Shown here in pieces: positions 1 through 22,511 of a DNA stretch of 34,629 nucleotides (position 1 is its first letter; every line of letters begins with the position of its first letter). The stretch comes from Verrucomicrobiota bacterium. GTDB taxonomy: Bacteria; Verrucomicrobiota; Verrucomicrobiia; Limisphaerales; JADLHS01. The stretch covers positions 1 through 34,629 of the forward strand of contig JANXWY010000055.1 of assembly GCA_025350905.1 (NCBI GenBank). The letters are read 5' to 3'. The position numbers and the translations under genes were made by a program. The notes under the pieces are model-generated. The model saw nothing but the letters and a program-made list of their open reading frames with translations. It was not told the DNA's origin and did no database searches.

Positions 1-173
1 GCCATTTTCACGCGGTCGCCCAGTTTCAACTCCTGCGCGGTTTTGAACAGCGCGTGCACTTGCAGGCCGCGCTGGAATTTTTCAAAGCCCCCGAGGATGT
101 ACATGATGATGAAGGCGGCGAGAATGATAAAGGCCACGAACAGGCCGAGGCGGGTTTCAAGTGTGTTTTTCAT
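1..173 (-). CDS. mlaD: MCE/MlaD-family lipid-binding protein, N-terminal fragment (cut by window edge)
   Basis: Only the first 57 codons are present, read leftward off the window. The protein opens with a short basic cytoplasmic stretch (MKNTLETR), one transmembrane helix at about residues 9-28 (LGLFVAFIILAAFIIMYILG), and the beginning of the extracytoplasmic domain (ALFKTAQELKLGDRV). This matches the start of MCE-domain proteins, whose opening strands usually carry a G-L-x-x-G-(A/D)-x-V signature. MlaD-type proteins form a ring that carries phospholipid between the inner-membrane ABC transporter and the periplasm. The ATG overlaps the stop of the ATPase gene in an ATGA, so translation is probably coupled. 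Assignment rests on context plus the anchor; the MCE domain itself is almost entirely outside the window. Confidence 0.85.
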   Translation of the reverse strand, partial: MKNTLETRLGLFVAFIILAAFIIMYILGGFEKFQRGLQVHALFKTAQELKLGDRVKM

Positions 174-937
174 AGGCTGGTTTTTTCGCGGTGAAAGTCG
201 GCATGGAGAAACTCCCGGATGACCGGATGATGGCTGCGCCGGACCTCGTCGGGCGAGCCGACGGCAAGAATTTCGCCCTCATGGATCACGGCGATGCGAT
301 GGGCAATGCCGAAAGCGAGATCGCGGTCGTGCGAGACGACCAGGGACGTGACGCCGATGCGCTGATTGAGCGTCAGGATTTCCTCGCCGATGACGACGGC
401 GGAAAGCGGGTCCAGCTCGCTGGTGGGTTCATCGTAGAGAATCAACTGCGGTTCAATGATGAGGGCCCGGGCGATGGCGGCGCGTTTTTTCATGCCGCCG
501 GAAAGCTCGCTGGGAAATTTTTCCTCCGTGCCTTTCAAGCCGACCACCGCCAGTTTTTCCGCGACGATGCGCGCGATTTCCGCCGGCGATTTGAGCTGAT
601 GTTCGCTCAGATAGAGGCCGACATTTTCGCCCACCGTGAGCGAATTGAACAAGGCGCCGGACTGAAATACCATGGCCATGCGGAATTTGTCCATCACCCC
701 GGGCGTCAGGATGGATTCGCCGTTGACGAGAATTTCCCCGGCATCGGGCACGTCGAGGCCAATGACATGGCGGAGCAAAACACTTTTGCCACTGCCGCTC
801 GGCCCCATCAGGACGAAGATTTCCCCGGCTTGCACTTCCAGGTCGATGCCCTTGAGGACTTCCTGTTTGCCGAAACTGCGGCGGACGCCGCGCATTTGCA
901 CGCCGACACCTTGGTGAGCATTGGGCGGAGCGTTCAT
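170..937 (-). CDS. mlaF: Mla-type ABC transporter ATP-binding protein
   Basis: A 255-residue ABC ATPase that powers the lipid-transporting MlaE permease from the cytoplasmic face. Visible motifs are Walker A (GPSGSGKS), the signature LSGGMKKR, and Walker B followed by the D-loop (LILYDEPTSELDP), then the switch histidine in VVSHD. The LSGGMKKR signature with M-K-K-R is typical of the MlaF/MKL subgroup. The reading frame stays open 53 codons further upstream, but that stretch is antisense-like and lies in the permease gene. The ATG at 937 is chosen because its last base is the first base of the permease stop codon (TGATG), a usual coupled junction. The 3' end overlaps the MCE gene by ATGA. Confidence 0.93.
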   Translation of the reverse strand: MNAPPNAHQGVGVQMRGVRRSFGKQEVLKGIDLEVQAGEIFVLMGPSGSGKSVLLRHVIGLDVPDAGEILVNGESILTPGVMDKFRMAMVFQSGALFNSLTVGENVGLYLSEHQLKSPAEIARIVAEKLAVVGLKGTEEKFPSELSGGMKKRAAIARALIIEPQLILYDEPTSELDPLSAVVIGEEILTLNQRIGVTSLVVSHDRDLAFGIAHRIAVIHEGEILAVGSPDEVRRSHHPVIREFLHADFHREKTSL

Positions 938-1674
938 CAGTGGAGTAGGATGCGCGTGAGGACGTAGTCGAACATCACGATCAACACGATGGAGTTGACC
1001 ACGGCCTTGGTGACCGAACGCCCAATCCCGCGCGGACCGCCGCGCGTGATGAGTCCTTGGTGGCAGGAAACAATGCCTACAATCCAGGCGAAACAAAAAC
1101 TCTTGAACACGCCGTTGGCGACATCCTTGACTTCCACCACGGATTTCATGTTCGTAAAGAACGACTGGATGGGAATATCAATTTGGCCCGTGACCGACGC
1201 CACGACGGCGCCGCCCAGCCAGCCGACGAGAATCGAAAACGTGACGAGCATCGGCAGCGCGCATGCAAGGGCCACCAGCCGGGGCAACACGAGGTAGTGG
1301 ATCGGGTTGATATTCATGGTGCGCAACGCATCGATCTCTTGATAAACGCGCATGGAGCCAATTTCCGCCGCCATGGCCGAACCGACGCGGCCCGCGATCA
1401 GGATGGACATCATGATGGGCGCGAACTCCTTGGCCATGGCGATACCGACGAGGCCCCCCACGGCATTGTGCAAGCCGCGCTCGGCGAGGAGCGGGCCGGT
1501 TTGCAGGGCGATCACACCGCCCAGGAAAAACGACAGCACGCAGATCATCAACAGGCTGGCGTTGCCAATCTCATAGAACTGTTCAAGGACTTTGGCGCGC
1601 TGTCGCCAAATGAATGGCAACGCGCCCAACGTGCGCCCCAAAAGGAGCACCATTTCACCGATGTTCTGGAACAT
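937..1674 (-). CDS. mlaE: MlaE-family lipid ABC transporter permease
   Basis: A 245-residue integral membrane protein of the MlaE/TRIC permease family, with the conserved core EFAPIMMSILIAGRVGSAMAAEIGSM followed, as in the family, by a Q-E-I-D-A-L element and a ...LPRLVA... element. (The core is quoted in two pieces elsewhere: EFAPIMMSILIAGR and VGSAMAAEIG.) The C-terminus has GGPRGIGRSVTKAVVNS, also family-typical. The open frame extends 25 codons upstream to 1749, but those codons lack family resemblance, so the ATG at 1674 is preferred. With that start the gene overlaps the repeat-protein gene by 20 bases. It is followed by the ATPase and MCE genes, giving the order E-F-D known from phospholipid transport operons. 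No equivalents of MlaB or MlaC are seen in the window. Confidence 0.92.
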   Translation of the reverse strand: MFQNIGEMVLLLGRTLGALPFIWRQRAKVLEQFYEIGNASLLMICVLSFFLGGVIALQTGPLLAERGLHNAVGGLVGIAMAKEFAPIMMSILIAGRVGSAMAAEIGSMRVYQEIDALRTMNINPIHYLVLPRLVALACALPMLVTFSILVGWLGGAVVASVTGQIDIPIQSFFTNMKSVVEVKDVANGVFKSFCFAWIVGIVSCHQGLITRGGPRGIGRSVTKAVVNSIVLIVMFDYVLTRILLH

Positions 1675-3280
1675 GATCGGGACGACCCTGTAATTTTGAC
1701 TGCGGGAGGTAAAATAACCGCCAGCGTTTGGTTTCCGCGCTGGATTCATACTGGATTAGCCCGAACAGGAGCGAGCCTTTTTTCAACGTGGGTGAAGTTT
1801 CGCGGCGGTAAAGATTCCACAGCAGCGACTGGCTGCTCGCGCCGGTCTGGGGATTATTCTCCGCCCGCCACACCGACCAGAGCGGCGAATAATTGCGCTC
1901 AATGCTCTTGCTCGCGGGCAGGATGGGCTCGAGGGGCGCGAAAATTTGCAGGCGGGATTTGCCGTCGTAGTCGCGTTGGTGGGTAAAGAACGGCCAGACA
2001 TCCGTGCGGGTCCGGAAATTGCCCGTCTCCGAGCTCTTCGCCATCGTGTGCGAAGCGAGGAACAGCAGGAGGCGCGTGCGGCTGTAGTCGAGCGGCGGGG
2101 CATGGATGCCTTTGAATTTGTACAGGGGCCACAGATAGAAATTGCTGTCCAACCGGCTTTCCGGCGTGTCGGTATGGACGCGACTGAAAAAAGGCCAGAC
2201 CCGGTTGGCGGTCTTGCCCTCGCCGCGCGTGAAGACGATGAACGGCCACGGGGCGCCCACTTCGTGGTATTTGCGGGTACGATCCTCAGTGATCGTCAGG
2301 CCGATCGGAGTCAGATAACTCGTACTGTCCCGCATCGGCGAGCGCAGCCGGTTGTAAAACGGCAGCACGACCAATTGGTCCTCCTGATTGGTGGTGCCCA
2401 GTTCGCGATGTTGATTGAAGTAAAAGGGCCAGGCTGCGAAACGCTTGTCATAGCCCGGCGTCGTCTCTACCTCGCCCCAAACATTGGTCTTCGTCGTGAC
2501 TTCCTTCTGTTCGCGACCCACCAGTGGCCACAGCTGCCAACCTTTCATCCCGTCGCCGTAGCGTAGGTGAAAGAAGGGGTAAACATAATTGTAGGTCGTA
2601 ACATCGCCGCGGCGAGAGTCCAAAAACTGCCGCCGCAGGTTGGCCTGCGCATCCAGCGGCACCGGACTGGCGGAACCACGCCGGACCGTCTTTACGTAAA
2701 GGGGCCAGAGCGCAAAATCGATCTCGCTCCGAAAGATACGATTTACCAGGTGGCCATAGATCGGGAACAGCGCGGTATAGTTCAGATTGGTATCGACGGA
2801 TCGCTGCTGCATGTAAACCGGGAAAATATTGAACTGATGGCGGGCGACTTCGGCCTGGTTATGCCCGCCGGTAAAGTTCAGCAATTGACCGAGGTGCCAG
2901 CGGTATTCGTGGCCGTAGCGGTCAAAGCTCAACAGGGGATAGAAAAAATCATACTCTTCGGAGTCGGTGTCCGGACGGACCGAGTGCGAAAAGATCGGCG
3001 GGAAGGCCAGAATATTTTCCGATTCGCCGTGCTGAAGGTAAAACAGTGGACCGAGAGCCTCGGTCCGCTCGCCCGCTTCCATCGTCAACGCGTAGCGGGA
3101 GAACAGCAGGCCAGCATCCACGTCGGCGCCACGGCCAACCTGGAGCCCGGAAACGAGCGTCAGCCAGAAAAACAGGCAGACTCGCCGACTTCGCCAATGG
3201 CCATTGAATAACGATACCGCCCGGGCGGATTCGACCGTCCGACGCCAAAACCATGGGGATTGACATTGAGTTCGAATCAT
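1655..3280 (-). CDS. Exported aromatic-proline repeat protein, function unknown
   Basis: A 541-residue protein I cannot assign to a named family. A basic N-region (1-33) is followed by a hydrophobic stretch at about 34-50, consistent with a signal sequence or anchor. The rest contains about sixteen short units of the type (L/V/F)(W/F/Y)P(F/L/I)(Y/F): FPPIF 93, FYPLL 113, IFPVY 152, LFPIY 171, LWPLY 191, VYPFF 233, LWPLV 250, AWPFY 283, VLPFY 305, VWPFF 361, LWPLY 383, VWPFF 428, and degenerate LWSVW 467, LWNLY 487, LFGLI 505. The units are separated by polar 15-45 residue segments. This could be an all-beta fold, such as a beta-barrel or a stacked-strand repeat; that is inference. The ATG at 3280 is the only usable in-frame start before the hydrophobic segment. 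It lies 76 bases after the RND gene and overlaps mlaE by 20 bases, so it belongs to the lipid operon. Confidence 0.85.
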   Translation of the reverse strand: MIRTQCQSPWFWRRTVESARAVSLFNGHWRSRRVCLFFWLTLVSGLQVGRGADVDAGLLFSRYALTMEAGERTEALGPLFYLQHGESENILAFPPIFSHSVRPDTDSEEYDFFYPLLSFDRYGHEYRWHLGQLLNFTGGHNQAEVARHQFNIFPVYMQQRSVDTNLNYTALFPIYGHLVNRIFRSEIDFALWPLYVKTVRRGSASPVPLDAQANLRRQFLDSRRGDVTTYNYVYPFFHLRYGDGMKGWQLWPLVGREQKEVTTKTNVWGEVETTPGYDKRFAAWPFYFNQHRELGTTNQEDQLVVLPFYNRLRSPMRDSTSYLTPIGLTITEDRTRKYHEVGAPWPFIVFTRGEGKTANRVWPFFSRVHTDTPESRLDSNFYLWPLYKFKGIHAPPLDYSRTRLLLFLASHTMAKSSETGNFRTRTDVWPFFTHQRDYDGKSRLQIFAPLEPILPASKSIERNYSPLWSVWRAENNPQTGASSQSLLWNLYRRETSPTLKKGSLLFGLIQYESSAETKRWRLFYLPQSKLQGRPDHVPEHR

Positions 3281-3341: not shown

Positions 3342-3381
3342 CCGACCCAGTGTCGATCATGCATTGTCGGCACTGGGTCGG
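3342..3381. terminator. Strong hairpin around the RND stop codon; terminator-like on the plus strand
   Basis: Positions 3342-3352 (CCGACCCAGTG) and 3371-3381 (CACTGGGTCGG) are a perfect 11-bp inverted repeat with an 18-base loop. The loop contains the stop codon (3357-3359) of the RND transporter gene. On the plus strand the right arm is followed by TTTTTCTTCT, so it reads as an intrinsic terminator blocking antisense transcription. On the minus strand, where the genes run, no U-run follows, so there it may instead separate or stabilise the mRNA segments upstream of the repeat-protein gene. A second small hairpin (GAGG TTTTTA CCTC, 3320-3333) lies between this and the next start codon. Confidence 0.6.
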
Positions 3382-6116
3382 TTTTTCTTCTGGGCTCGCT
3401 TTTGCATCAACAGATTCAGTATCGCCGGCAGAAACGTCAAACCTGCGATCATACACGTGGCCACGCCCGTCGCCATCACGTAGCCGAGGCTTTCGATGCC
3501 ACGATGCTTGGCCAGCGCCAGACTGCCAAAGCCGGCAATGGTGGTGAGGCCGGAAACCAGGACGGCCTTGCCGGTGCTCTTGGCCAAAATACTGGGCGTC
3601 TGTTCTTCAGCAAAGCGATTCAGAATGTGAATGCCATTCGTCACGCCGATGCCTATGATGAGCGGCAGCATCATGATGTTCGCCGGATTCAGCGGTATGT
3701 TGAACCAGCCCATCACCCCGCCCAGCCAAAGCGAGCCAATCGCCACCGGCAGCAATGCTAAAATCACGGAACCCAGGGTGCGGAAATGGATGAACACCAG
3801 GATGGCAATCGCAATGAGGGAATACACGGCCGCCTCCTCGTAACTCCGTTTGAGGAGAGTGGTGTACTCCAGCAATTGCACTGGCGTTCCCGTCACATTG
3901 GGATCAATCGTTCGGACCTGGCGGACAAATTCTTCCTGAGGCGCCCGCTGCCAGACATTTTCCTTGGGATAAACCTGCAGCAAAATTTTTCCGTGCACGC
4001 CGACGAAGCGATCTCGCAAGGCGGACGGCAGATCTTCGACGCGCAGCTTTTCGCGGTTATCCTGATGTTGGAGCGCCTCGAAGGTCGAGCGCAGATCATC
4101 GAAGAGCGCGCGTTGATAGTTTCCGAGTTGCGCGCCGACGATCGCCAGATCCGTCGGGTTGCCCTGCAACATTTCTTTGCGGAAAATCTCAATCGCCCGG
4201 TAAAGGGAAGTCAAGCGGGCCGTCACCGCCGCGTCGTCTTTCTGTGCCTCCTCTCGGGCCAAGCCAATGTAGCCATTCAAGGAGTAAAGGCTGCGGCTTA
4301 ACTCCAGAACGTTTACGGGTTGCCGGTCGGCCGCGTCGAAGTGCAGGGCGGACAAATCCTTTTTGACTTCCCCGATCACTCGGAGTTTTTCCGCCTGATT
4401 TTCCGTCAGGAATTTCGCGATGGAATCCACGTCCGCCACTGCCGGCAGTTGCCGGATCCGCTGTTCCAACTCCACCGCCTGCGTCAGGGAATCGGTGACG
4501 ACCGCCGCGAACAAAACCGTGCGGGCGGAAGCGTTGGTGTCGCCGTCCTTGCCGGCTTTCGCCGTCGAATCAATGAGCTTTTTCGCAAACTCAACTGCCG
4601 GCAAACCCTTGCTTTGCATGTTGAGCAGGTTGTAATCAAAAATCACGCGGCGCATCCTCCACGCCGAACCGGCGCACAGAGCCACCGTTACCAGGATCAC
4701 CAGCGCCGGGCGGCGCAGCCAGAGGTTTTCGATTTGCTCGCGCCGGTCCACCTTGCCCGCCAATTCGTGGTCTAATACGTTTTGCCGCCCGCGCAACAGC
4801 AGCACTGGCAGCAACGTCATCATCGGCACCAGACAGACCAGCAAGCCACCGCCGCAAATGATACCCATCTCTTGAATGCCCTTGAAGTCCGTAAAGCCCA
4901 TGGCCAGAAACGCCCCCGCCGTCGTAAACGCCCCCGTAAAAATCCCCTGCCCAGTAAACACCAGCGCCGTGGTCATCGCCTCGGCATCGCTCTTGCCGTG
5001 ATACAATTCCTCCTCATACCGCGTAACCAGATGCACGCCGAAATCAATCGCCAGTCCAATCAGGATGGGAACAAACGTGACCGTCAGAATGTTCAAATGG
5101 CCCACGACCGCCGTGGTGAAGGCCATCGTGTACGCCAGCCCCACCACCAGACAAAGGGTGGCCTTCAGCGGCCGGCCGGTCTGATTGTACCCGTAGATGA
5201 AGATCAGCGCACAGACGATCAGCGAGACGATGCTCGCCACGGTGGTGTCGCTCTGCGACTGCTTCATTTCATCGTGGACCAGCACCGGTTCGCCGGTGAT
5301 ACCCACGTTGATGCCGGGTACCTCCGCCCGCGTTTCCTCGACCAACTGGCGTAGGCGCAGCACGGCGGCACTGTTTTTTTCCTCCGTCACGGCCTGCGCC
5401 GTGACCAGATAAATCTGCCCCCGGGCAAAGGTGATATAAACGCTCCGTTCCGCCTCCGGCCCGGCGGCGAACAAGGCAAACACCCCCGGCGATGGGGGGG
5501 CGCCGTCGCGCCGCAAACTCGCCGTGGCTTGCGTCACGATGCGCTCGAGCGCGGGAATCGCCCGAATGAGCGATTCGGTCTCCGCGTTCCGTTCCCGTTT
5601 GGCCGTGCGGAACTGCGTGTTGATCATGTCGAACAACGACACCAGATTCGTCGTGTGCGTGAAGGGATCGATGAACGGCAGATAGTCGTTCAGTTTTTTC
5701 CTCAGCTGGAGCAGGTCGGGTTCCGGCACGAACAAGAGCGCCTTCGAGCCGAGCATCTTCAGGTCGCCCTTGTAAAAGACGTGCATGAAGAGGTTCGTTT
5801 CCGCCTCCAACTTCGCGCCAATCCGTTCAACAAACTGCCGGTTCTTTTCGCCGTTTTCACTCTCCACCACCACCACCAGATCATCCTGGGTGGGAAATTC
5901 CTTTTTGAACTGGAGAAAATTCTGGTGATATTTCTTGCCGCTGCCGACCAGATCATTGCGGTTGGTCCGGAACTCCAGAAACTTGACCGTGTAGAGAATG
6001 CTGAGTCCGAACAGGATGATCTGCGGCCAGAAAAACCACTGGCGGCGGTGAATCACGGCCCAGGCCAGCTTGCCCAACAGGCGGGCCGAAATACTCCCCG
6101 CGCTCAGGGGTTTCAT
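3357..6116 (-). CDS. HpnN-like RND/MMPL-superfamily lipid transporter
   Basis: A 919-residue inner-membrane transporter with the usual two-fold RND/MMPL layout: a first helix at about 27-48, a large periplasmic loop, a helix bundle with GLAIDFGVHLVTRYEEE, a second periplasmic loop, and a second bundle with LNPANIMMLPLIIGIGV. The NPAN-x-(M)-LPL pattern is like hopanoid transporters of the HpnN type, which move lipids toward the outer membrane using the proton gradient. Asp358 in the first half is the expected proton-relay residue; the equivalent position in the second half is Thr826 (GIGVTNGIHI). The frame extends three codons to a GTG at 6125, but the ATG at 6116 is chosen because it forms an ATGA with a preceding small ORF. 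It heads the transporter part of the operon ending in mlaEFD. The substrate is not shown by sequence; no hopanoid genes are seen in the window. Confidence 0.87.
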   Translation of the reverse strand: MKPLSAGSISARLLGKLAWAVIHRRQWFFWPQIILFGLSILYTVKFLEFRTNRNDLVGSGKKYHQNFLQFKKEFPTQDDLVVVVESENGEKNRQFVERIGAKLEAETNLFMHVFYKGDLKMLGSKALLFVPEPDLLQLRKKLNDYLPFIDPFTHTTNLVSLFDMINTQFRTAKRERNAETESLIRAIPALERIVTQATASLRRDGAPPSPGVFALFAAGPEAERSVYITFARGQIYLVTAQAVTEEKNSAAVLRLRQLVEETRAEVPGINVGITGEPVLVHDEMKQSQSDTTVASIVSLIVCALIFIYGYNQTGRPLKATLCLVVGLAYTMAFTTAVVGHLNILTVTFVPILIGLAIDFGVHLVTRYEEELYHGKSDAEAMTTALVFTGQGIFTGAFTTAGAFLAMGFTDFKGIQEMGIICGGGLLVCLVPMMTLLPVLLLRGRQNVLDHELAGKVDRREQIENLWLRRPALVILVTVALCAGSAWRMRRVIFDYNLLNMQSKGLPAVEFAKKLIDSTAKAGKDGDTNASARTVLFAAVVTDSLTQAVELEQRIRQLPAVADVDSIAKFLTENQAEKLRVIGEVKKDLSALHFDAADRQPVNVLELSRSLYSLNGYIGLAREEAQKDDAAVTARLTSLYRAIEIFRKEMLQGNPTDLAIVGAQLGNYQRALFDDLRSTFEALQHQDNREKLRVEDLPSALRDRFVGVHGKILLQVYPKENVWQRAPQEEFVRQVRTIDPNVTGTPVQLLEYTTLLKRSYEEAAVYSLIAIAILVFIHFRTLGSVILALLPVAIGSLWLGGVMGWFNIPLNPANIMMLPLIIGIGVTNGIHILNRFAEEQTPSILAKSTGKAVLVSGLTTIAGFGSLALAKHRGIESLGYVMATGVATCMIAGLTFLPAILNLLMQKRAQKKNRPSADNA

Positions 6117-6253
6117 GGCAAGCACCGGCGTCCGCCGGTCTCCACCGTCTGGCTCGCGGCCGCGCGGTCGTACCCGGGGTCGGCGCGCCTGGCTCCCGAC
6201 CGCAAACTCCGGCGCCCGGCATTACCGCGTTCCCCTGCCCGTGGGTCAGTCAT
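6113..6253 (-). CDS. Small ORF (46 aa), possible leader peptide coupled to the RND transporter
   Basis: A 46-codon ORF that starts MTDPRAGERG and ends GGRRCLP; it is rich in Arg, Gly and Ala with no hydrophobic segment. It is preceded by a perfect AGGAGG (6264-6269) spaced 10 bases from the ATG, the strongest ribosome-binding site I find in the window. Its TGA overlaps the ATG of the RND transporter as ATGA, the same junction used by several true gene pairs here. Its 3' end contains an inverted repeat (ACCGGCG-TC-CGCCGGT, 6124-6139). It lies 30 bases after the YbjQ gene. No family is recognised. It could be a real small protein, a translational coupling device for the transporter, or a chance ORF in GC-rich DNA. 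Confidence 0.5.
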   Translation of the reverse strand: MTDPRAGERGNAGRRSLRSGARRADPGYDRAAASQTVETGGRRCLP

Positions 6254-7926: not shown

Positions 7927-9051
7927 TCAAATCGCCGGCGCGGCGAGAAACGGATGGGTGGCGGTGCCGCGTTGGCCTTCGGCACGCAAATCCACTTCGC
8001 GTCCTTTCCAACTCGCCACCCCCACGTGCTTCAGCCTCCCGAGCTGCCAGCGCCACGAGATCCCGTAGAACGGATTGTTCGTCGGCCAGAACGAAATAAA
8101 ATCCAGCTTTGCCGCTCGGGCCATTTCGATGGCGCGCGCGATATGCTGCGGATGATCATTCCAATTGAAGAGCAGATATTTCCACTCGAGGATGGGTTGC
8201 GCCAAACCCCGCGCGTTCCGGTATTCCGCCATCGCTTGCATCGCGGCATACGCTTTCGTGAAACTGCCGCGATGCATGTATTTCTCGGACATGGCATCGG
8301 TGACGCCATGCACGGAGAAAAAAATGTGGCTGAAATTCAAGGCCGCCTCGCGCTTGGCGTCCGTGTTCAACAGCACGCCATTCGTGGAGGTGACGATCCG
8401 GCAATCGGGATTTTTCCTTCGTAACAGCGGCAGCTCCTGGCCAATGGTCGGCGAAAGAAAGGGCTCGCCCAGGTTCAGATAAAAGATCTGCTTCATCCCC
8501 AACTGCCGCATGAGTTCCGCCATCTGCTCCATGTCCGCCAGGGACATCTGCAGTTGTTGATCCACCCGGAGCCCCGCCGCGGTTTCGCGCGCGCAACCCG
8601 TGCAATCCACGTTGCAGCGGACAGTGTTTTCCAAAAGCATGCCCCGATGCGGGAGTCGGATCGCGGGCGGCTGGGCATCGCGCGCCGGCAGCCGCTTTAA
8701 GTCACCACAACGGGTGCAGGTGGGGATGGGCATCTTGCCGCGGGCCAGTTCGTCGCGAAGTTTCTGCGCCACCGGGCCGAAGTAGATTTCCTCGAAGGTA
8801 TTCTTGCGCAAATCGCCCATGTGCCCCGCTCCATCGTAGTCCTGACAGTTACAGGAAACCGTGCGATCCGAGTTGATGGTGATGTTGTATTCCGATTCGC
8901 CGTGCAGGGCGCCGCAGTAGTAGCCACGCCCCGTGAGTTTGGCCTGCCATTCATATTTCCACCCGAGTATCTTGCGGATCCAGTCACTGACGACCCAGTT
9001 GAAACGTGCTTTGGGTTTAAGCCGTTTGGCCGGATTCTGCAGAGTTGCCAT
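7927..9051 (-). CDS. Radical SAM protein with N-terminal SPASM-like domain (reversed domain order)
   Basis: A 374-residue putative Fe-S enzyme. The radical SAM motif is C146-x3-C150-x2-C153 (CNVDCTGC), followed by the glycine-rich LNLGEPFLSP and a strand FFSVHG, which fits a radical SAM core from about 140 to 350. Before it, residues 46-115 look like a SPASM auxiliary-cluster domain: C46, C67-x-C69, the GDLRKNTFEEIYFGP stretch, and C112-x2-C115. SPASM domains normally follow the core, so the order is reversed. Family members modify peptides or other substrates by radical chemistry. The start codon is uncertain: the ATG at 9051 overlaps the preceding Fe-S flavoprotein gene by 35 bases, and an in-frame ATG at 9075 is an alternative. 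Being last in the redox operon, it may mature or serve one of the other proteins. Confidence 0.82.
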   Translation of the reverse strand: MATLQNPAKRLKPKARFNWVVSDWIRKILGWKYEWQAKLTGRGYYCGALHGESEYNITINSDRTVSCNCQDYDGAGHMGDLRKNTFEEIYFGPVAQKLRDELARGKMPIPTCTRCGDLKRLPARDAQPPAIRLPHRGMLLENTVRCNVDCTGCARETAAGLRVDQQLQMSLADMEQMAELMRQLGMKQIFYLNLGEPFLSPTIGQELPLLRRKNPDCRIVTSTNGVLLNTDAKREAALNFSHIFFSVHGVTDAMSEKYMHRGSFTKAYAAMQAMAEYRNARGLAQPILEWKYLLFNWNDHPQHIARAIEMARAAKLDFISFWPTNNPFYGISWRWQLGRLKHVGVASWKGREVDLRAEGQRGTATHPFLAAPAI

Positions 9052-10651
9052 CCACGGAGGTTGCACCGCGGCCATTCGCAGCGGCAAGTTTCTTTTCCGC
9101 GAACACCAACGCCCCGGTCGGGCAATGCTGCACACATTCCGCGGCGACTCGCTCGAGCCCGGCTTCAACCTCAAGGCCAAACGGCGCGCTGATTTTTAAG
9201 TCAAAGCCACGGCCAATGAACGCAAGCCCCAGCGGCTCGGCGGCCATTTCGGTAAGCTTTACACAGATGCCGCACAGGATGCACTTGCCCGGTTCGAAGA
9301 TGATGCCGCCGGGCTGGAGCTGCTGTTCAAATGGTCGCCGTTCCGCCCGGAAGCGGCTCGCGTTCGCGCCATACGTCTGCGCGTAGTGCTGCAGCACGCA
9401 ATTGCCCGAGGAGCGGCAGTCGCAATGCAGGCAGCGCGACGACTCCACCGCCGCCTCCGGTCGCGTGTGCCCCGCGCAGCGATCGCACGGTGCCACGCTC
9501 CCGCCGCTGTGGGTGGAACGGATAAACGCCTTCAACTCGCCAGGATCGATCCGGCCCATGAGGCTGGAAAACGGTTTCTCGGGTCGCCGCGCCGGTTGGC
9601 CGCCCAAAAACCGATGAACACACTCGGCCGCCGCCCGCCCTTCCGCCATCGCCTTAACCAGTTGTTTCTGCGGCCGTACCGCGCTGCCGGCGGCGAAGAC
9701 CTTTTCCAGCGGCGTCTGGCAGGTGTTCGGATCCGCTTTGATCGAATTTCCCGCCAGCGCCAAACCCAACTTCGCGCCCTCCGCCGGGGCGAGTTCACCC
9801 ACGGTAATCAGGACGGCCTCAAACCCGCGCGCCAAACCTTCGGACGTGACGTGTTGGCCAAGTTCCACGCCAAATTTGAAATCAATTCCCAAGCGGGCGA
9901 GCAACGCCACTTCCCGGTCCAGCACGGCGACGGGCAACTGGTTCTCGCCCACGGCGCGCAACGATCCGCCCGCCTGCGCTTGCCGGTCGGCCACGGTGAC
10001 GCTGTGGCCTTCGCGCGCAAGATAGTACGCGGCCGCGAGTCCTGTCGGCCCCGCACCGATGATTACGACGCGCTTGCCCGTAGCCGGTTTGCGCGGGATC
10101 AGGTGCGTTTCCGGCTTCTGAAAATCCTGATCCGTGACGAATTTTTCCATGTCCCGAATTGCGGCCGGATCGTCCCAGTTGCCGCGCCGGCAACCTTGCT
10201 CGCAGGGATGATGACACAGCCGCCCCAGCACCCCCGCCAGGGGCAACGCCTGGCGCACCGTGGCAATCGCCTCGTCCCATCGCTCGGCCTCAAGGTGCCG
10301 CAGCATCAAGGGAATGTTCAGCATCAGGGGACACAGCCGGTGACACGGCGAAAGACAATCGCCCACGTGATCGCTAAACAATAACTCGAGCGCCGTGCGC
10401 CTCGCTTCGTGAACTTCCTCCGTCTCGCTTTCGATCACCATGCCCGGCGTGACCTTGGTGCCGCACGATGGAACGAGCTTGCCGTTGAGTTTGACGAGAC
10501 AGACCTGGCAGGTGTTGAGCGGTCCGCACTTTTCCAGAAAACACAAGGTCGGGATATCAATCGCCAGCTTGCGGGCGGCGGTCAACACGCTTTCGCCCGG
10601 TTGCACGGCGACCGGGCGGCCGTCGATGCTGATGGTGAACGAGTCGCTCAT
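9017..10651 (-). CDS. Fe-S flavoprotein: NuoG-type [2Fe-2S] + GltD-like FAD domain + ferredoxin domains
   Basis: A 544-residue cytoplasmic electron-transfer protein. Order: [2Fe-2S] ferredoxin domain of NuoG type (C37, C48, C51, C63); a GltD-type Fer4_20 domain (C99-x3-C103-x3-C107 and GRLCHHPCEQGCRRG, C146-C154); a Rossmann FAD motif (IIGAGPTGLAAAYYL, 198-211); a shortened remainder; then NuoG-like cysteines (RCLHCDC...GNC, about 407-418) and a final ferredoxin region (C457, C460, C463, C506, C510). The second, NAD(P)H-binding Rossmann motif normally found in GltD is not visible. No molybdopterin or H-cluster domain follows. Its ATG overlaps the stop of the NuoEF fusion gene as ATGA, so the two probably form one complex, with NADH entering at NuoF and electrons passing through this protein. 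The partner or final acceptor is unknown. Confidence 0.87.
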   Translation of the reverse strand: MSDSFTISIDGRPVAVQPGESVLTAARKLAIDIPTLCFLEKCGPLNTCQVCLVKLNGKLVPSCGTKVTPGMVIESETEEVHEARRTALELLFSDHVGDCLSPCHRLCPLMLNIPLMLRHLEAERWDEAIATVRQALPLAGVLGRLCHHPCEQGCRRGNWDDPAAIRDMEKFVTDQDFQKPETHLIPRKPATGKRVVIIGAGPTGLAAAYYLAREGHSVTVADRQAQAGGSLRAVGENQLPVAVLDREVALLARLGIDFKFGVELGQHVTSEGLARGFEAVLITVGELAPAEGAKLGLALAGNSIKADPNTCQTPLEKVFAAGSAVRPQKQLVKAMAEGRAAAECVHRFLGGQPARRPEKPFSSLMGRIDPGELKAFIRSTHSGGSVAPCDRCAGHTRPEAAVESSRCLHCDCRSSGNCVLQHYAQTYGANASRFRAERRPFEQQLQPGGIIFEPGKCILCGICVKLTEMAAEPLGLAFIGRGFDLKISAPFGLEVEAGLERVAAECVQHCPTGALVFAEKKLAAANGRGATSVDGNSAESGQTA

Positions 10652-13281
10652 TTCATCTCCACCGCGTTATGCGGGCACACCAGCCGACACGTGTCGCAAC
10701 GCGTGCATTTCGCATCATCGATCACATGCTGCGCGTACGGCGTCGTCGGAATTGCGTCCACCGGACAATGCTGCGCGCAGAGCGTGCAGCCGGTGCAATC
10801 GCCATTGATCGTGTATTTGATCAGGGTGGTACATTTGCGCGCGGGACAACGCCCGGCCAGGTGCGCCTCGTATTCGTCACGAAAATAGCGCAGCGTCGAC
10901 AGCACCGGATTGGGCGCGGTTTTGCCCAGGCCGCAGAGGCTGCCCGCCCCGACCTGCACCGCCAGCCGCTCCAATTCTTCCAGCTGCGGCCGGGTGGCTC
11001 TACCGGTGCAAAGCCGGTCCAGGATGTCGAGCATCCGCTTCGTGCCGATGCGGCAGAACGTGCACTTGCCGCACGACTGATCCTGCGTGAACTGCAGGAA
11101 GTAGCGCGCGATGTCCACCATGCAGCTCGTATCATCGAGCACCACCAGTCCGCCGCTGCCCATGATCGCGCCCACCTCGCGCAAGGACTCGAAATCCACC
11201 GGCGTGTCCGCGAGGCGCGCCGGCACACAACCCCCGCTCGGCCCGCCAATCTGCACCGCCTTGAACCGTCGCCCGGCCGCCGCCCCGCCGCCAATTTCCT
11301 CCACGATCTCCCGGATCGTCGTGCCCATCGGAACTTCGATGAGTCCGCCGCGGCGGATCTTGCCCGCGAGCGCAAACACCTTCGTGCCTTTGCTCTTGGC
11401 CGTGCCGATGGCCGCGAATTTCTCGGCGCCGTTCCGCAGGATCCACGGTACCAAGGCGAGCGTCTCGACATTATTGATCAGGGTCGGCTGCTCCCATAAC
11501 CCGGCCTGTGCCGGAAACGGCGGGCGCAACTTCGGCATGCCGCGCTCGCCTTCGATCGAAGCAATCAAGGCGGTCTCTTCGCCGCAAACAAACGCGCCCG
11601 CGCCTTCGAAGACCGAGAGCTTGAGCGGATAACTCTGCGGTTGCCCTCCATCCGGCTTCGCCACCCGCTCCCCCTGGGTTGGGGCGAGGGGTGCCCCGAC
11701 ACCGAGCAAACTTTCGCCCAGCCAGCCGCGTTGCTCGAGCTGGGCAATCGCCGCCCGGACGCGCTTCACGGCCAGCGGGTATTCGTGGCGAATATAGAAA
11801 ATCCCTTCCCGCGCGCCGACGGCCACCGCCGCAATCGCCAGTCCTTCAATCACGCGAAACGGGAAGGACTCGAGGATCATCCGATCCATGAAGGCGCCCG
11901 GATCCCCTTCGTCGCCGTTGCAAATGACGTATTTGGTATCGTTGGTTTGTTGGGCGACCACGCGCCATTTTTGTCCGGACGGAAATCCCGCGCCACCCCG
12001 CCCGCGTAGCCCGGACTTCTCGATGGTCGAGATGATTGCTTCCCTTGTAGCAGCCGACGTCAGGAGGCTCTGAGTGATTTTTGAAGTGTGTGTAGCCTCG
12101 CCCTCACCCTGACCCTCTCCCCCGGGGAGAGGGGACAGCTTTCGTCTGCTCTGACTTGTTCGTGAGTCGCATGAGCTATCGCCGACACTCGATTGCTCAA
12201 AAACCGACGAAGGATTCTCCCTCTCCTGGGGGAGAGGGCCGGGGTGAGGGCGGGCCAATAACTCGGTCCCCAAGCACCGCGCCAGCGCCGCGAAACCATC
12301 GTGCGCCAGATACTCATCCAGGTCCAATGGATCAAGCTTGCCAAAATGTTCGGTGGCGATGTGCACTTGCTTGTCCAAAAACGCCCGCACCGCCGGGTCC
12401 CGCTTGCTCATCGAGAAATGCTGCACGCTTCGTTGTTCAGTCGGAGCGTCGAGCAGCAGGCTGTCCAACACGCGCGTCCAGACGCGGCGGGCCTGTTGCA
12501 CTAACCCGCGCGGCTGGAAATGGCGTTGCACGAGCGCTGCCGCATGCTCCGGGGAAAGCCCGGCGTAAAATTCGCCTTTGCCCGCCGCGGTCGTAATCTC
12601 GATCATGGGCGTCCGATGACACATCCCGACGCAGCCGACCCGCTTCACCGCCACGTTCACGCCCCCCGCTTCCGCGCTCTCCCGGAGGGCGTGAAATAAA
12701 CGGTCGCTCCCTTTCGCCATGCAACACGAGCCCAGCCCGACGTGAATTTCCGCCCTCACCCCAGGCCGGTGCTCGCCCTGGTCTTCCGTGGATTTCACCG
12801 CCGTCGCCGTGGCCAGGTTCGCCAGAAAATCGCGCATCAATTCGGGCACTTTTTCCGCCGTGGTGTAACCCAACGTGGATTCACCAATCCGCACCACCGG
12901 GGCCAGCGTGCAGGTGCCCAAGCAAGCCACCGGTTCAATGGTGTACTGGCCGGCACGATCGGTGTCGGCGCCGTTCGGAATTTGCAGGTGCCGGCGGAGC
13001 GAATCCTCGACCCGCTCCGCGCCCGCCACATGGCAGGCCGTGCCTCGACACACGCGCACGACATGTTTGCCCGTCGGCTGCATCCGGAACATGTCGTAAA
13101 ACGACGCCACGCCGGCGACAGCCGCCGGCGTGATGTCCGTGGTCAAGCACACGCGGCGCAAGGCTTCCTCCGGCAGATAGCCGTAACGCTCCTGCAATAT
13201 CTGTAAGATCGGGATTAGCGCCTCGGGTTTTCGCCCCGCGCGCGCCACCGCCGCATCCGCAATGGTCAGGTCAATGGGCAT
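10648..13281 (-). CDS. NuoE-NuoF fusion: NADH-oxidising diaphorase subunit with C-terminal 2[4Fe-4S] ferredoxin
   Basis: An 877-residue cytoplasmic protein like the NADH module of NAD-linked hydrogenases, formate dehydrogenases and complex I. Residues 1-155 are NuoE-like (C78, C83, C120, C124). About 178-255 is a second thioredoxin-like [2Fe-2S] domain (C186/C187, C217, C221). The NuoF part has the FMN/NADH elements GLRGRGGAGFPSGQKW (425-440), NGDEGDPGAFMDR (455-467) and GAFVCGEETAL (562-572), and the [4Fe-4S] ligands C737, C740, C743, C783. Residues 829-869 are a two-cluster ferredoxin. Two stretches (about 343-413 and 528-549) do not belong to NuoF and are translated palindromic repeats. 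They sit before the FMN motif and in a loop before the second NADH motif, and the frame is kept. The gene is coupled by ATGA to the Fe-S flavoprotein gene. No dedicated catalytic subunit is nearby. Confidence 0.92.
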   Translation of the reverse strand: MPIDLTIADAAVARAGRKPEALIPILQILQERYGYLPEEALRRVCLTTDITPAAVAGVASFYDMFRMQPTGKHVVRVCRGTACHVAGAERVEDSLRRHLQIPNGADTDRAGQYTIEPVACLGTCTLAPVVRIGESTLGYTTAEKVPELMRDFLANLATATAVKSTEDQGEHRPGVRAEIHVGLGSCCMAKGSDRLFHALRESAEAGGVNVAVKRVGCVGMCHRTPMIEITTAAGKGEFYAGLSPEHAAALVQRHFQPRGLVQQARRVWTRVLDSLLLDAPTEQRSVQHFSMSKRDPAVRAFLDKQVHIATEHFGKLDPLDLDEYLAHDGFAALARCLGTELLARPHPGPLPQERENPSSVFEQSSVGDSSCDSRTSQSRRKLSPLPGGEGQGEGEATHTSKITQSLLTSAATREAIISTIEKSGLRGRGGAGFPSGQKWRVVAQQTNDTKYVICNGDEGDPGAFMDRMILESFPFRVIEGLAIAAVAVGAREGIFYIRHEYPLAVKRVRAAIAQLEQRGWLGESLLGVGAPLAPTQGERVAKPDGGQPQSYPLKLSVFEGAGAFVCGEETALIASIEGERGMPKLRPPFPAQAGLWEQPTLINNVETLALVPWILRNGAEKFAAIGTAKSKGTKVFALAGKIRRGGLIEVPMGTTIREIVEEIGGGAAAGRRFKAVQIGGPSGGCVPARLADTPVDFESLREVGAIMGSGGLVVLDDTSCMVDIARYFLQFTQDQSCGKCTFCRIGTKRMLDILDRLCTGRATRPQLEELERLAVQVGAGSLCGLGKTAPNPVLSTLRYFRDEYEAHLAGRCPARKCTTLIKYTINGDCTGCTLCAQHCPVDAIPTTPYAQHVIDDAKCTRCDTCRLVCPHNAVEMK
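11635..11700. repeat. Palindromic repeat translated inside the NuoF domain (second insertion)
   Basis: The segment contains CTCCCCCTGGGTTGGGGCGAG-like imperfect palindrome material (about 11659-11697), of the same general type as the repeat at 12102-12254. It encodes residues about 528-549 (VGAPLAPTQGERVAKPDGG), which interrupt the otherwise normal NuoF sequence between WLGESLLG and the strand leading to GAGAFVCGE. Length is a multiple of three within the frame, so NuoF remains readable. Confidence 0.6.
12043..12255. repeat. Composite repeat insertion inside the NuoE-NuoF gene (about 210 bp, in frame)
   Basis: Two arms, 12102-12134 and 12218-12251, are imperfect inverted copies of each other (CCTCACCCTGACCCTCTCC against the complement of the CCGGGGTGAGG side), and each carries its own small palindrome around CCCTCTCC/GGAGAGGG. 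Next to the first arm, 12047-12074 is a half copy of the CCGACGT...AGGAGGC family. The whole stretch is translated as residues about 343-413 (ARPHPGPLPQERE ... LSPLPGGEGQGEGE ... SLLTSAATR), which is absent from ordinary NuoF proteins. It lies just before the FMN motif and does not break the frame. Confidence 0.75.
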
Positions 13282-20345: not shown

Positions 20346-20465
20346 GTTCCCCTGGGAGCGACCCTAACGGAAGATTAGGTGCGGGACAACCCAGAGTTGT
20401 CGGGCTGGAATCCAATTCTCGGCGGGGACGCACCCATCCGTGCCATTCGGGACCGCCGCCCATCT

Positions 20466-21353
20466 TCAGGCGAGATTCAAATTTTTCAACACCCGCACGG
20501 TCGAAGCCGCCTTGTTCAGCGTATAAAAATGCAGTCCCGGCGCGCCGGCGCGCAACAAATCCGCACATTGCCGGGTGGCGTACTCGATACCGAACTCCGC
20601 CGCCGCCGCGTCGTCGGTACCCAGGGCATCCAGCTTGGCCCCAAGCGCGGGCGGAATTTTCGCGCCGCAGATCTGGGTGAATTTCTTGATGGCAGTCGCG
20701 CTCACGATGGCGATGACGCCGGGAACGATCGGAACTTTCACCCTCAGCTTGGCGGTCAGGTAGTCGCGAAATTCAAAAAAGTCCGCGTTGTCGAAAAACA
20801 ACTGGGTCAACACGAAATCCGCGCCCGCGTCGATCTTTTGCTTGAGGTGCTGCCAGTCCACGTGCTTGCCAAGCCGACAGGCAATATGGCCTTCCGGAAA
20901 GCCGGCCACCCCGATGCCAAGGCCGCCCTGCTCCCGGATGAATTGCACGAGCTGCGAGGAATACTCGAACCCGCCCGGCGTCGGCTGAAATTCACCGCCC
21001 GCCGGCGGATCCCCGCGGAGCGCCAGGATGTTCTGGCAGCCCATCGCCTTGATCTTTTGAAGCAACTCGCCGACCTGTTCGCGGGTGTGATTGACGCAGG
21101 TCAGATGTGCAAGCGCGGTCAGTTGGTGTTCGCGCTGGATGCGATCTACAATCATCAGCGTTTTCTCGCGCGTGCTGCCACCGGCGCCGTAGGTCACAGA
21201 GCAGAAGTCCGGCTTCGTTTGCATCAGCGCCGGGATATTCTTTTCGAGCAGCGTGCGGTCACCCTCGTCAGTCTTCGGGGGAAAGAATTCGAGCGAGATA
21301 ACGGGGCGTCCGGCAGCGCGTTTGGCCGTGTAGATGTCGCGAATCAATTGCAT
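20466..21353 (-). CDS. metF: Methylenetetrahydrofolate reductase
   Basis: A 295-residue cytoplasmic flavoenzyme that reduces 5,10-methylene-THF to 5-methyl-THF for methionine synthesis. Family marks: SLEFFPPKTDEGDRTL near the N-terminus, FCSVTYGAGGSTREKT, HLTCVNHTREQ, ILALRGDPPAGG, and FVLTQLFFDNADFFEF with the C-terminal PGVIAIVSATAIKKF-like segment and GLHFYTLNKA. Length is typical. The open frame continues 251 codons upstream but there it is antisense to trpD; the ATG at 21353 begins MQLIRDIY, right before the first family strand. No room exists for a riboswitch between this start and the divergent trpD start if trpD begins at 21366. Confidence 0.95.
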   Translation of the reverse strand: MQLIRDIYTAKRAAGRPVISLEFFPPKTDEGDRTLLEKNIPALMQTKPDFCSVTYGAGGSTREKTLMIVDRIQREHQLTALAHLTCVNHTREQVGELLQKIKAMGCQNILALRGDPPAGGEFQPTPGGFEYSSQLVQFIREQGGLGIGVAGFPEGHIACRLGKHVDWQHLKQKIDAGADFVLTQLFFDNADFFEFRDYLTAKLRVKVPIVPGVIAIVSATAIKKFTQICGAKIPPALGAKLDALGTDDAAAAEFGIEYATRQCADLLRAGAPGLHFYTLNKAASTVRVLKNLNLA

Positions 21354-21365
21354 TGGCGGCGGACT

Positions 21366-22511
21366 ATGCCTCAAGTCGGCGGGGAATCCAAGCCCAAGCA
21401 TGCGAGCCGCACCGCGGCTTTTTCCGCTTTGCACGCCGCTGGCCGCATCTATGCTGGTCGCGTGCTGGATGCTTTGACGGGACAACTCACGCGGAACGAA
21501 CCGCTCCCCGCGGGTCGGGTCGCGGACGCGGTGAGCGCGCTCATCTTGGAATCGATTCCCATCGAAAGCAAAGCGGCATTTCTCACGGCGCTGGCCCGAA
21601 AAGGGGAGACGGCGGAGGAAATCGCCGCATTTGCGAATGAACTCTGCGCCCGCGCCATCCTTCCGTCGTTGGAAGCCGGGCTCCGCGCGCGCGAAATCCT
21701 CGATGTCTGCGGCACGGGGGGCGATCAGCTCGGCACCTTCAACATTTCCACGACCGTCGCCCTGGTGTGCGCGGCCGCGGGCGTCACGGTGGCCAAACAC
21801 GGCAATCGCGCCATCACCTCCCGTGCCGGTAGCGCCGACGTGCTGGAAGCCCTGGGGATCCGCACCGACTTGTCGCCGGCCGAGGCGGCGCGGTCCTTGC
21901 GCGAACATGGCTTCGCCTTTTTCTTCGCGCCCCATTATCATCCGGCTTTCCAGCACCTCGCGCCCGTCCGCAAGCTCTGCGCGGAGCGCGGCCAGCGCAC
22001 GATCTTCAACTTCCTCGGCCCGTTGCTGAACCCCGTCCGACCCTCCGCACAACTCATGGGCGTGCCGCGCCCGGAACTGTGCGAACCGATGGCCCGCGTG
22101 CTGCAATCGCTCGGCGTGCGGCGGGCCATGGTGGTGTGTGGGACGGTGCCGTCCGCCGGCCCGGCGGCTTATCTGGATGAACTTTCAACGCTGGGCGACA
22201 ACACCATTGCTGAGTTTTATCAGGAACGTGGGTTCGCGACTTCGACCCTGGATCCGCAGCAGTTTCCACTGCAGCCGGCCACGCTGGCCGACCTCGTCGG
22301 CGGCGACCGGGACGCCAACGCCGAGATCATTCGCCGGATCATGCGCGGCGACGACTCCGGGCCAAAGCGTGATGCCGTCCTGCTGAATGCGGGCGCGGCG
22401 TTGTTCGTGGCCGGCTGCGCGCGCTCCATGGCTGCCGGTTGGGAGCTGGCCGCTGCAGTCATCACGAGCGGCAAGGCGCAAGCGAAACTGGAAGAACTTT
22501 CCGCCCGCTAA
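21366..22511 (+). CDS. trpD: Anthranilate phosphoribosyltransferase
   Basis: Transfers phosphoribose to anthranilate in tryptophan synthesis. Motifs: DVCGTGGDQLGTFNIST (phosphate/PRPP loop; the usual residue after GGD is often G), VAKHGNRAITSRAGSADVLE, FFFAPHYHPAFQHLAPVR and RTIFNFLGPLLNP. With the ATG at 21366 the product is 381 aa, about 30 longer than usual. A GTG at 21462 (VLDALTGQLTRNEPL) would give 349 aa, the typical length, and would free about 100 bases for divergent promoters, so that start is plausible. The frame upstream of 21366 is antisense to metF. No other trp genes are in the window. Confidence 0.94.
   Translation: MPQVGGESKPKHASRTAAFSALHAAGRIYAGRVLDALTGQLTRNEPLPAGRVADAVSALILESIPIESKAAFLTALARKGETAEEIAAFANELCARAILPSLEAGLRAREILDVCGTGGDQLGTFNISTTVALVCAAAGVTVAKHGNRAITSRAGSADVLEALGIRTDLSPAEAARSLREHGFAFFFAPHYHPAFQHLAPVRKLCAERGQRTIFNFLGPLLNPVRPSAQLMGVPRPELCEPMARVLQSLGVRRAMVVCGTVPSAGPAAYLDELSTLGDNTIAEFYQERGFATSTLDPQQFPLQPATLADLVGGDRDANAEIIRRIMRGDDSGPKRDAVLLNAGAALFVAGCARSMAAGWELAAAVITSGKAQAKLEELSAR

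Follow-up and report, generated by a model that had tools for sequence, protein, structure and literature searches.

Mla-type lipid transporters and their envelope partners

The closest described systems are MCE-type lipid transporters and the envelope proteins that accompany them. The Mla system of Escherichia coli (MlaA, MlaC and MlaFEDB) has the same MlaE-MlaF-MCE core as the locus analysed here, and we propose that its outer-membrane-side role also has a counterpart at this locus. MlaA, MlaB and MlaC are mostly proteobacterial (PMC10665443). Like the locus analysed here, the minimal MlaEFD system of Veillonella parvula (PMC10665443) has the core without adjacent MlaA or MlaC, the outer-membrane element being the missing piece. 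The V. parvula MlaD carries a C-terminal outer-membrane barrel, which MlaD proteins of the PVC group lack (PMC10665443), whereas the candidate element here is a separate upstream gene, whose product is predicted to have short polar strands. Envelope partners of a further kind are the PqiC-type lipoproteins of approx. 200 aa (PF03886; PMC10897342), whose genes accompany those of an MCE transporter. Our literature search found no paper on a Mla partner in Verrucomicrobiota.

The 541-aa ORF and its genetic context

We analysed a 34,629-nt stretch of DNA (contig JANXWY010000055.1 of a Verrucomicrobiota bacterium of the order Limisphaerales, assembly GCA_025350905.1), referred to below as the window. 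The ORF reported in an earlier note on this DNA was confirmed at positions 1655..3280 and lies on the minus strand. It encodes a putatively exported protein of 541 aa with approx. 20 predicted aromatic-proline beta-hairpins and no named family.

Immediately downstream, also on the minus strand, are genes encoding (i) an MlaE permease (937..1674; PF02405, E = 7.3e-72; TIGR00056 above its cut-off) and (ii) an MlaF-type ATPase (170..940; PF00005, E = 3.9e-30), whose start at approx. 940 was predicted from the sequence. The MlaE reading frame is open to position 1749, and its start was set by homologues at MFQNIGE; the gene overlaps the stop codon of the 541-aa ORF by approx. 20 bp. The MCE gene of the window falls past the contig edge. 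The gene located 76 bp upstream of the ORF (3357..6125, minus strand) encodes an HpnN-like MMPL/RND lipid transporter (PF03176, 2.7e-42), which matches the HpnN model TIGR03480 at 1.5e-169, yet scores under its curated cut-off.

Two further regions of the window were noted. Adjoining minus-strand genes at 7927-13281 encode a radical SAM/SPASM protein, a Fer2/GltD-like protein of 544 aa and an 877-aa NuoE-NuoF-ferredoxin fusion; the top NCBIfam match of the first of these is a tungsten-cofactor oxidoreductase maturase, far under the cut-off. A 710-aa ORF at 20379-22511 contains TrpD in its C-terminal half (above its cut-off), and its N-terminal 370 residues have no NCBIfam match.

A family without named relatives

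The 541-aa protein gave no useful match to Pfam, NCBIfam, PHROGs or PDB sequences, which bears out the earlier statement that it cannot be placed in a named family. In particular, MlaA (PF04333) was found neither in the protein nor in the 68 homologues, PqiC/ABC_trans_aux (PF03886) in none of the 68 members, and the MORN sequence repeat in none of them at E 0.5. Comparison with TamB (PF04357) yielded no Pfam match and an hhalign probability of 0.1%, obtained against only 4 truncated TamB sequences. LptD (PF04453) was considered and rejected, with no Pfam match and an hhalign probability of 0.4% against the LptD proteins of 15 relatives; a separate LptD gene is present in all 15 genomes, including that of the bacterium studied.

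The distribution search covered Verrucomicrobiota and plasmid records. The closest relative, encoded by another Limisphaerales MAG (L002), is 84% identical. Nearly all good genomes of the order (143 of 154) encode a homologue; phylum-wide, 109 of 251 genomes do, and the plasmid records contained none. By sequence, the protein represents a family that has no named relatives and is spread through Verrucomicrobiota.

Linkage to mlaE, mlaF and mlaD

Among 58 loci spread over the phylum, 57 have the gene of the 541-aa protein followed by those of MlaE, MlaF and the MCE protein, in this order and on one strand; the count includes one locus (L069) whose contig stops short of the MCE gene. The arrangement is retained down to approx. 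22-28% identity, with gaps that are mostly small or replaced by overlaps. The single exception (L124) encodes a weak homologue with no MlaE in the 2.2 kb of contig downstream. The MCE (MlaD) domain was verified by Pfam in three of the loci. The earlier suggestion that the protein fits its neighbours is supported, since these lipid-transport genes adjoin it at 57 of 58 loci, and we regard the operon link to mlaEFD, judged from gene order, as strong.

The co-occurrence of the genes points the same way. None of the 21 genomes of the phylum that lack MlaE (one of them assigned to this set by elimination) encodes a homologue, vs 122 of 288 genomes overall (p = 5e-6, a value that ignores relatedness). 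MlaE is present in 267 genomes of the phylum and the 541-aa protein in 122; many genomes with MlaE are thus without it.

In Limisphaerales, an HpnN-like RND transporter gene lies directly upstream at 12 of 14 loci. This position in the cluster raises the speculative idea that hopanoids are an extra cargo in that order. Squalene-hopene-cyclase-type domains were detected in all 58 sampled Limisphaerales genomes, most of the matches being strong and near-full-length.

MlaE lineages and other MlaEFD operons of the phylum

In a tree of 77 MlaE sequences, the MlaE proteins encoded beside the 541-aa family form two clades of their own, and the linkage label requires 2 changes, vs 17 when shuffled. 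Other MlaE copies from the same genomes (that of the window, G310, G566, G435, G420 and G327) fall outside these clades. The tree thereby ties the gene to particular MlaE lineages. The genome of the window has a second MlaE-MlaF-MCE operon without the gene (L128:2525-5056, contig C95), whose MlaE is likewise outside the linked clades.

Operons lacking the gene may carry other partners: one (L141) encodes MlaC and MlaA, and two (L134 and L135) a PqiC-like lipoprotein (E approx. 1e-5, just under the Pfam cut-off). In the latter two (L134:3745-7128 and L135:3785-7218), an N-terminally extended MlaE of approx. 380 aa precedes the lipoprotein; genome G327, the source of L134, has an operon of the type found in the window as well. 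Given that PVC-group MlaD is barrel-less, that MlaA, MlaB and MlaC are mainly proteobacterial and that other operons have other partners, the 541-aa protein seems to stand in the place of the missing partner.

MlaA is encoded away from these operons in 23 of 97 genomes of the order, including that of the window, so the protein is not simply a replacement for MlaA. The MlaA of the window's genome is a 672-aa ORF (L127:2126-4144, contig C434) with PF04333 at residues 68-270 and a long C-terminal part that weakly matches an esterase (E = 9e-4). In most of the 23 genomes, the MlaA frame is of comparable length.

The aromatic-proline repeat and the putative export signal

The earlier note described the protein as composed of about sixteen (W/F/Y)P(F/L/I)(Y/F) units. 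The repeat itself is real: residues 51-541 contain 7 strict [WFY]P[FLI][YF] units (shuffled mean 0.12, maximum 3) and 10 of the form [WFY]P[FLI] (shuffled mean 1.03, maximum 6; 20,000 shuffles each). A total near sixteen is reached only when L/A/T-P-hydrophobic units are included, and it rises to approx. 20 once looser and proline-less copies (LLFL, LWNL, LFGL) are counted. The units are spaced mainly by 17-22 residues, with intervals of approx. 40 at a degenerate unit or a long inserted loop. Alignment of 68 homologues spanning 22-88% identity shows the following columns to be invariant: P78, P115, P154, P173, G176, P193, P235, P252, W284-P285, P307, P346 and W429-P430; nearly all of them lie inside the repeat units and most are unit prolines.

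A hydrophobic, export-signal-like segment occupies approximately residues 34-51 (3128..3181, minus strand), with predicted cleavage near residue 51, as judged from the sequence and the N-termini of homologues. A simple composition window detected such an N-terminus in 67 of 73 homologues, in agreement with the signal-like start noted earlier, and a plausible lipobox in only two (L103 and L117). We conclude from these sequences that the protein has an export-like N-terminus.

Predicted structure

An AlphaFold2 monomer model built from 68 sequences (pLDDT 91.5, pTM 0.81) superseded a first model from 27 sequences (pLDDT 76.9, pTM 0.55). It predicts approx. 45 short antiparallel strands, mostly of 4-8 residues and mostly polar. 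Every second loop is an aromatic-proline tip, the others being polar turns, and on the Wimley-White interface scale the means are +0.40 for the aromatic-proline loops, -0.50 for the loops between them and -0.14 for the strands. The repeat region, in which polar strands are joined alternately by these two kinds of turn, was placed at residues 78-526 (1703..3049, minus strand) on the basis of the invariant prolines, the model (pLDDT 91.5), the loop alternation and the covariation centred on the prolines.

Mutual information revealed symmetric pairing about the prolines (mean 0.56 SD, p = 0.001 vs random centres) and about the polar loops (0.58 SD), and both therefore look like hairpin turns; the covariation shares its alignment with the model, and the proline centres were picked from the sequence. 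The units, which the earlier note had taken for strands, are turns in the model, and the covariation supports this assignment of the tips. Were each of the units a turn, the aromatic-proline tips would all lie on one edge. The fold and its alternating edges are predictions of this model.

Neither Foldseek nor VIA-align found a global structural match. The top Foldseek matches (beta-propeller and ciliary proteins; TM approx. 0.1, rmsd >20) were dropped as generic meander matches. The best local matches, to single-layer sheets, were obtained with VIA-align for both the first model (CPAP Z 12.9, MORN 11.5, OspA 9.8) and the second (ApoB100 Z 9.6 with rmsd 13.2, CPAP 9.5, OspA 8.9, MORN 8.6), although such Z scores may, by the tool's own warning, reflect only a common arrangement. 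The MORN-type hairpin ribbon, for instance, scored 11.5 in the first model and 8.6 in the better one, over approx. 170 residues. The OspA, MORN and CPAP G-box folds and the ApoB100 belt are extended antiparallel single-layer hairpin sheets, which the predicted structure may resemble along a part of its length (Z approx. 8-13), but they have no sequence relation to the 541-aa protein, are not encoded in lipid-transport operons, and match only approx. 150-250 of its residues.

Proposed role and alternative explanations

The 541-aa protein very likely is a component of this MlaEFD system. We favour, with some reserve, the view that it serves the Verrucomicrobiota-type MlaEFD (MCE) lineage as a dedicated partner on the periplasmic or outer-membrane side; since it is encoded beside mlaE-mlaF-mlaD across Verrucomicrobiota, it is probably a missing envelope part of the Mla-type lipid transporter of this phylum. 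The protein would be exported by its signal peptide, and its short antiparallel strands would form a long meander, with one edge polar and the other lined with approx. 20 aromatic-proline hairpin tips. It would work on the periplasmic or outer-membrane side, a location that we infer and hold to be about evenly balanced for the outer-membrane side, and would perform there the job that elsewhere falls to MlaA and MlaC, to a PqiC-type lipoprotein or to a barrel fused to MlaD. It has no sequence relation to E. coli MlaA or MlaC (no Pfam match), and its predicted fold differs from theirs; similarly, the PqiC-type lipoproteins that accompany other MlaEFD operons of the phylum (L134 and L135) differ from this family, in which 0 of 68 members match PF03886. 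The hydrophobic edge might dock on the inner leaflet of the outer membrane or guide lipid to or from MlaD, and may thus contact lipid, membrane or MlaD. Contact of the tip edge with lipid or membrane is a tentative assignment, and since the strands are polar, an edge-on approach to the membrane is offered as a hypothesis. A role in lipid transport is likewise inferred. An extended lipid-binding beta surface, akin to the groove envisaged in the earlier note, would come close to our best reading.

The same features could be read differently. The earlier note had also considered an unusual beta-barrel, and an integral outer-membrane barrel of approx. 22 strands, with the units placed mid-strand in long membrane strands, would pass or anchor lipids. 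The units are indeed rich in aromatics, the last strand of several homologues is aromatic-rich and finishes with F or L, as is common in barrel proteins, and wall segments of porins and LptD were matched at Z approx. 6-8. However, the strands have only 4-8 mostly polar residues and are interrupted at the units by 3-5-residue gaps in the model, and the model had no global match among closed outer-membrane barrels (Foldseek TM normalised by query <=0.19). LptD, moreover, is a separate gene without a profile match to the protein. The antiparallel covariation is turn-like and centred on the prolines, and for this reason, even though it derives from the same alignment as the model, we judge a barrel with mid-strand proline kinks to be quite unlikely. 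A ribbon that spans the periplasm and, together with MlaEFD, lets lipids slide from one membrane to the other, in the manner of LptA, TamB or VPS13-type bridges, would agree with the single continuous hydrophobic edge, with the ApoB100 belt being among the nearest folds and with a length of approx. 210 Angstrom if approx. 45 modelled strands at 4.8 Angstrom were laid out straight. The faces of the strands are, however, polar for the most part, which leaves no evident groove; the pTM suggests a defined shape over a loosely extended one, and the truncated TamB sequences gave no profile match. We hold such a bridge to be unlikely.

Single-layer sheets serve many functions, and the gene might encode an unrelated periplasmic or surface protein (for adhesion or envelope scaffolding) whose only tie to mlaEFD is co-transcription. 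This is very unlikely, in view of the retention of order and strand across the phylum despite strong divergence, the tie to specific MlaE clades and the absence of the gene where MlaE is missing. Besides the preferred reading of a dedicated MlaEFD partner, we entertain, with considerable doubt, a bolder proposal, namely a new envelope lipid-transport element in the form of a long single-layer beta ribbon, whose aromatic-proline comb edge would carry or anchor lipid between MlaEFD and the outer membrane. The family that would form such an element is so far known only from Verrucomicrobiota, the phylum searched along with the plasmid records.

One conserved gene that accompanies particular MlaE lineages across the phylum offers a direct experimental handle on how an MlaEFD transporter with neither MlaA and MlaC nor a barrel on MlaD reaches the outer membrane. 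Its fold, once confirmed, would represent an unusual solution for lipid handling.
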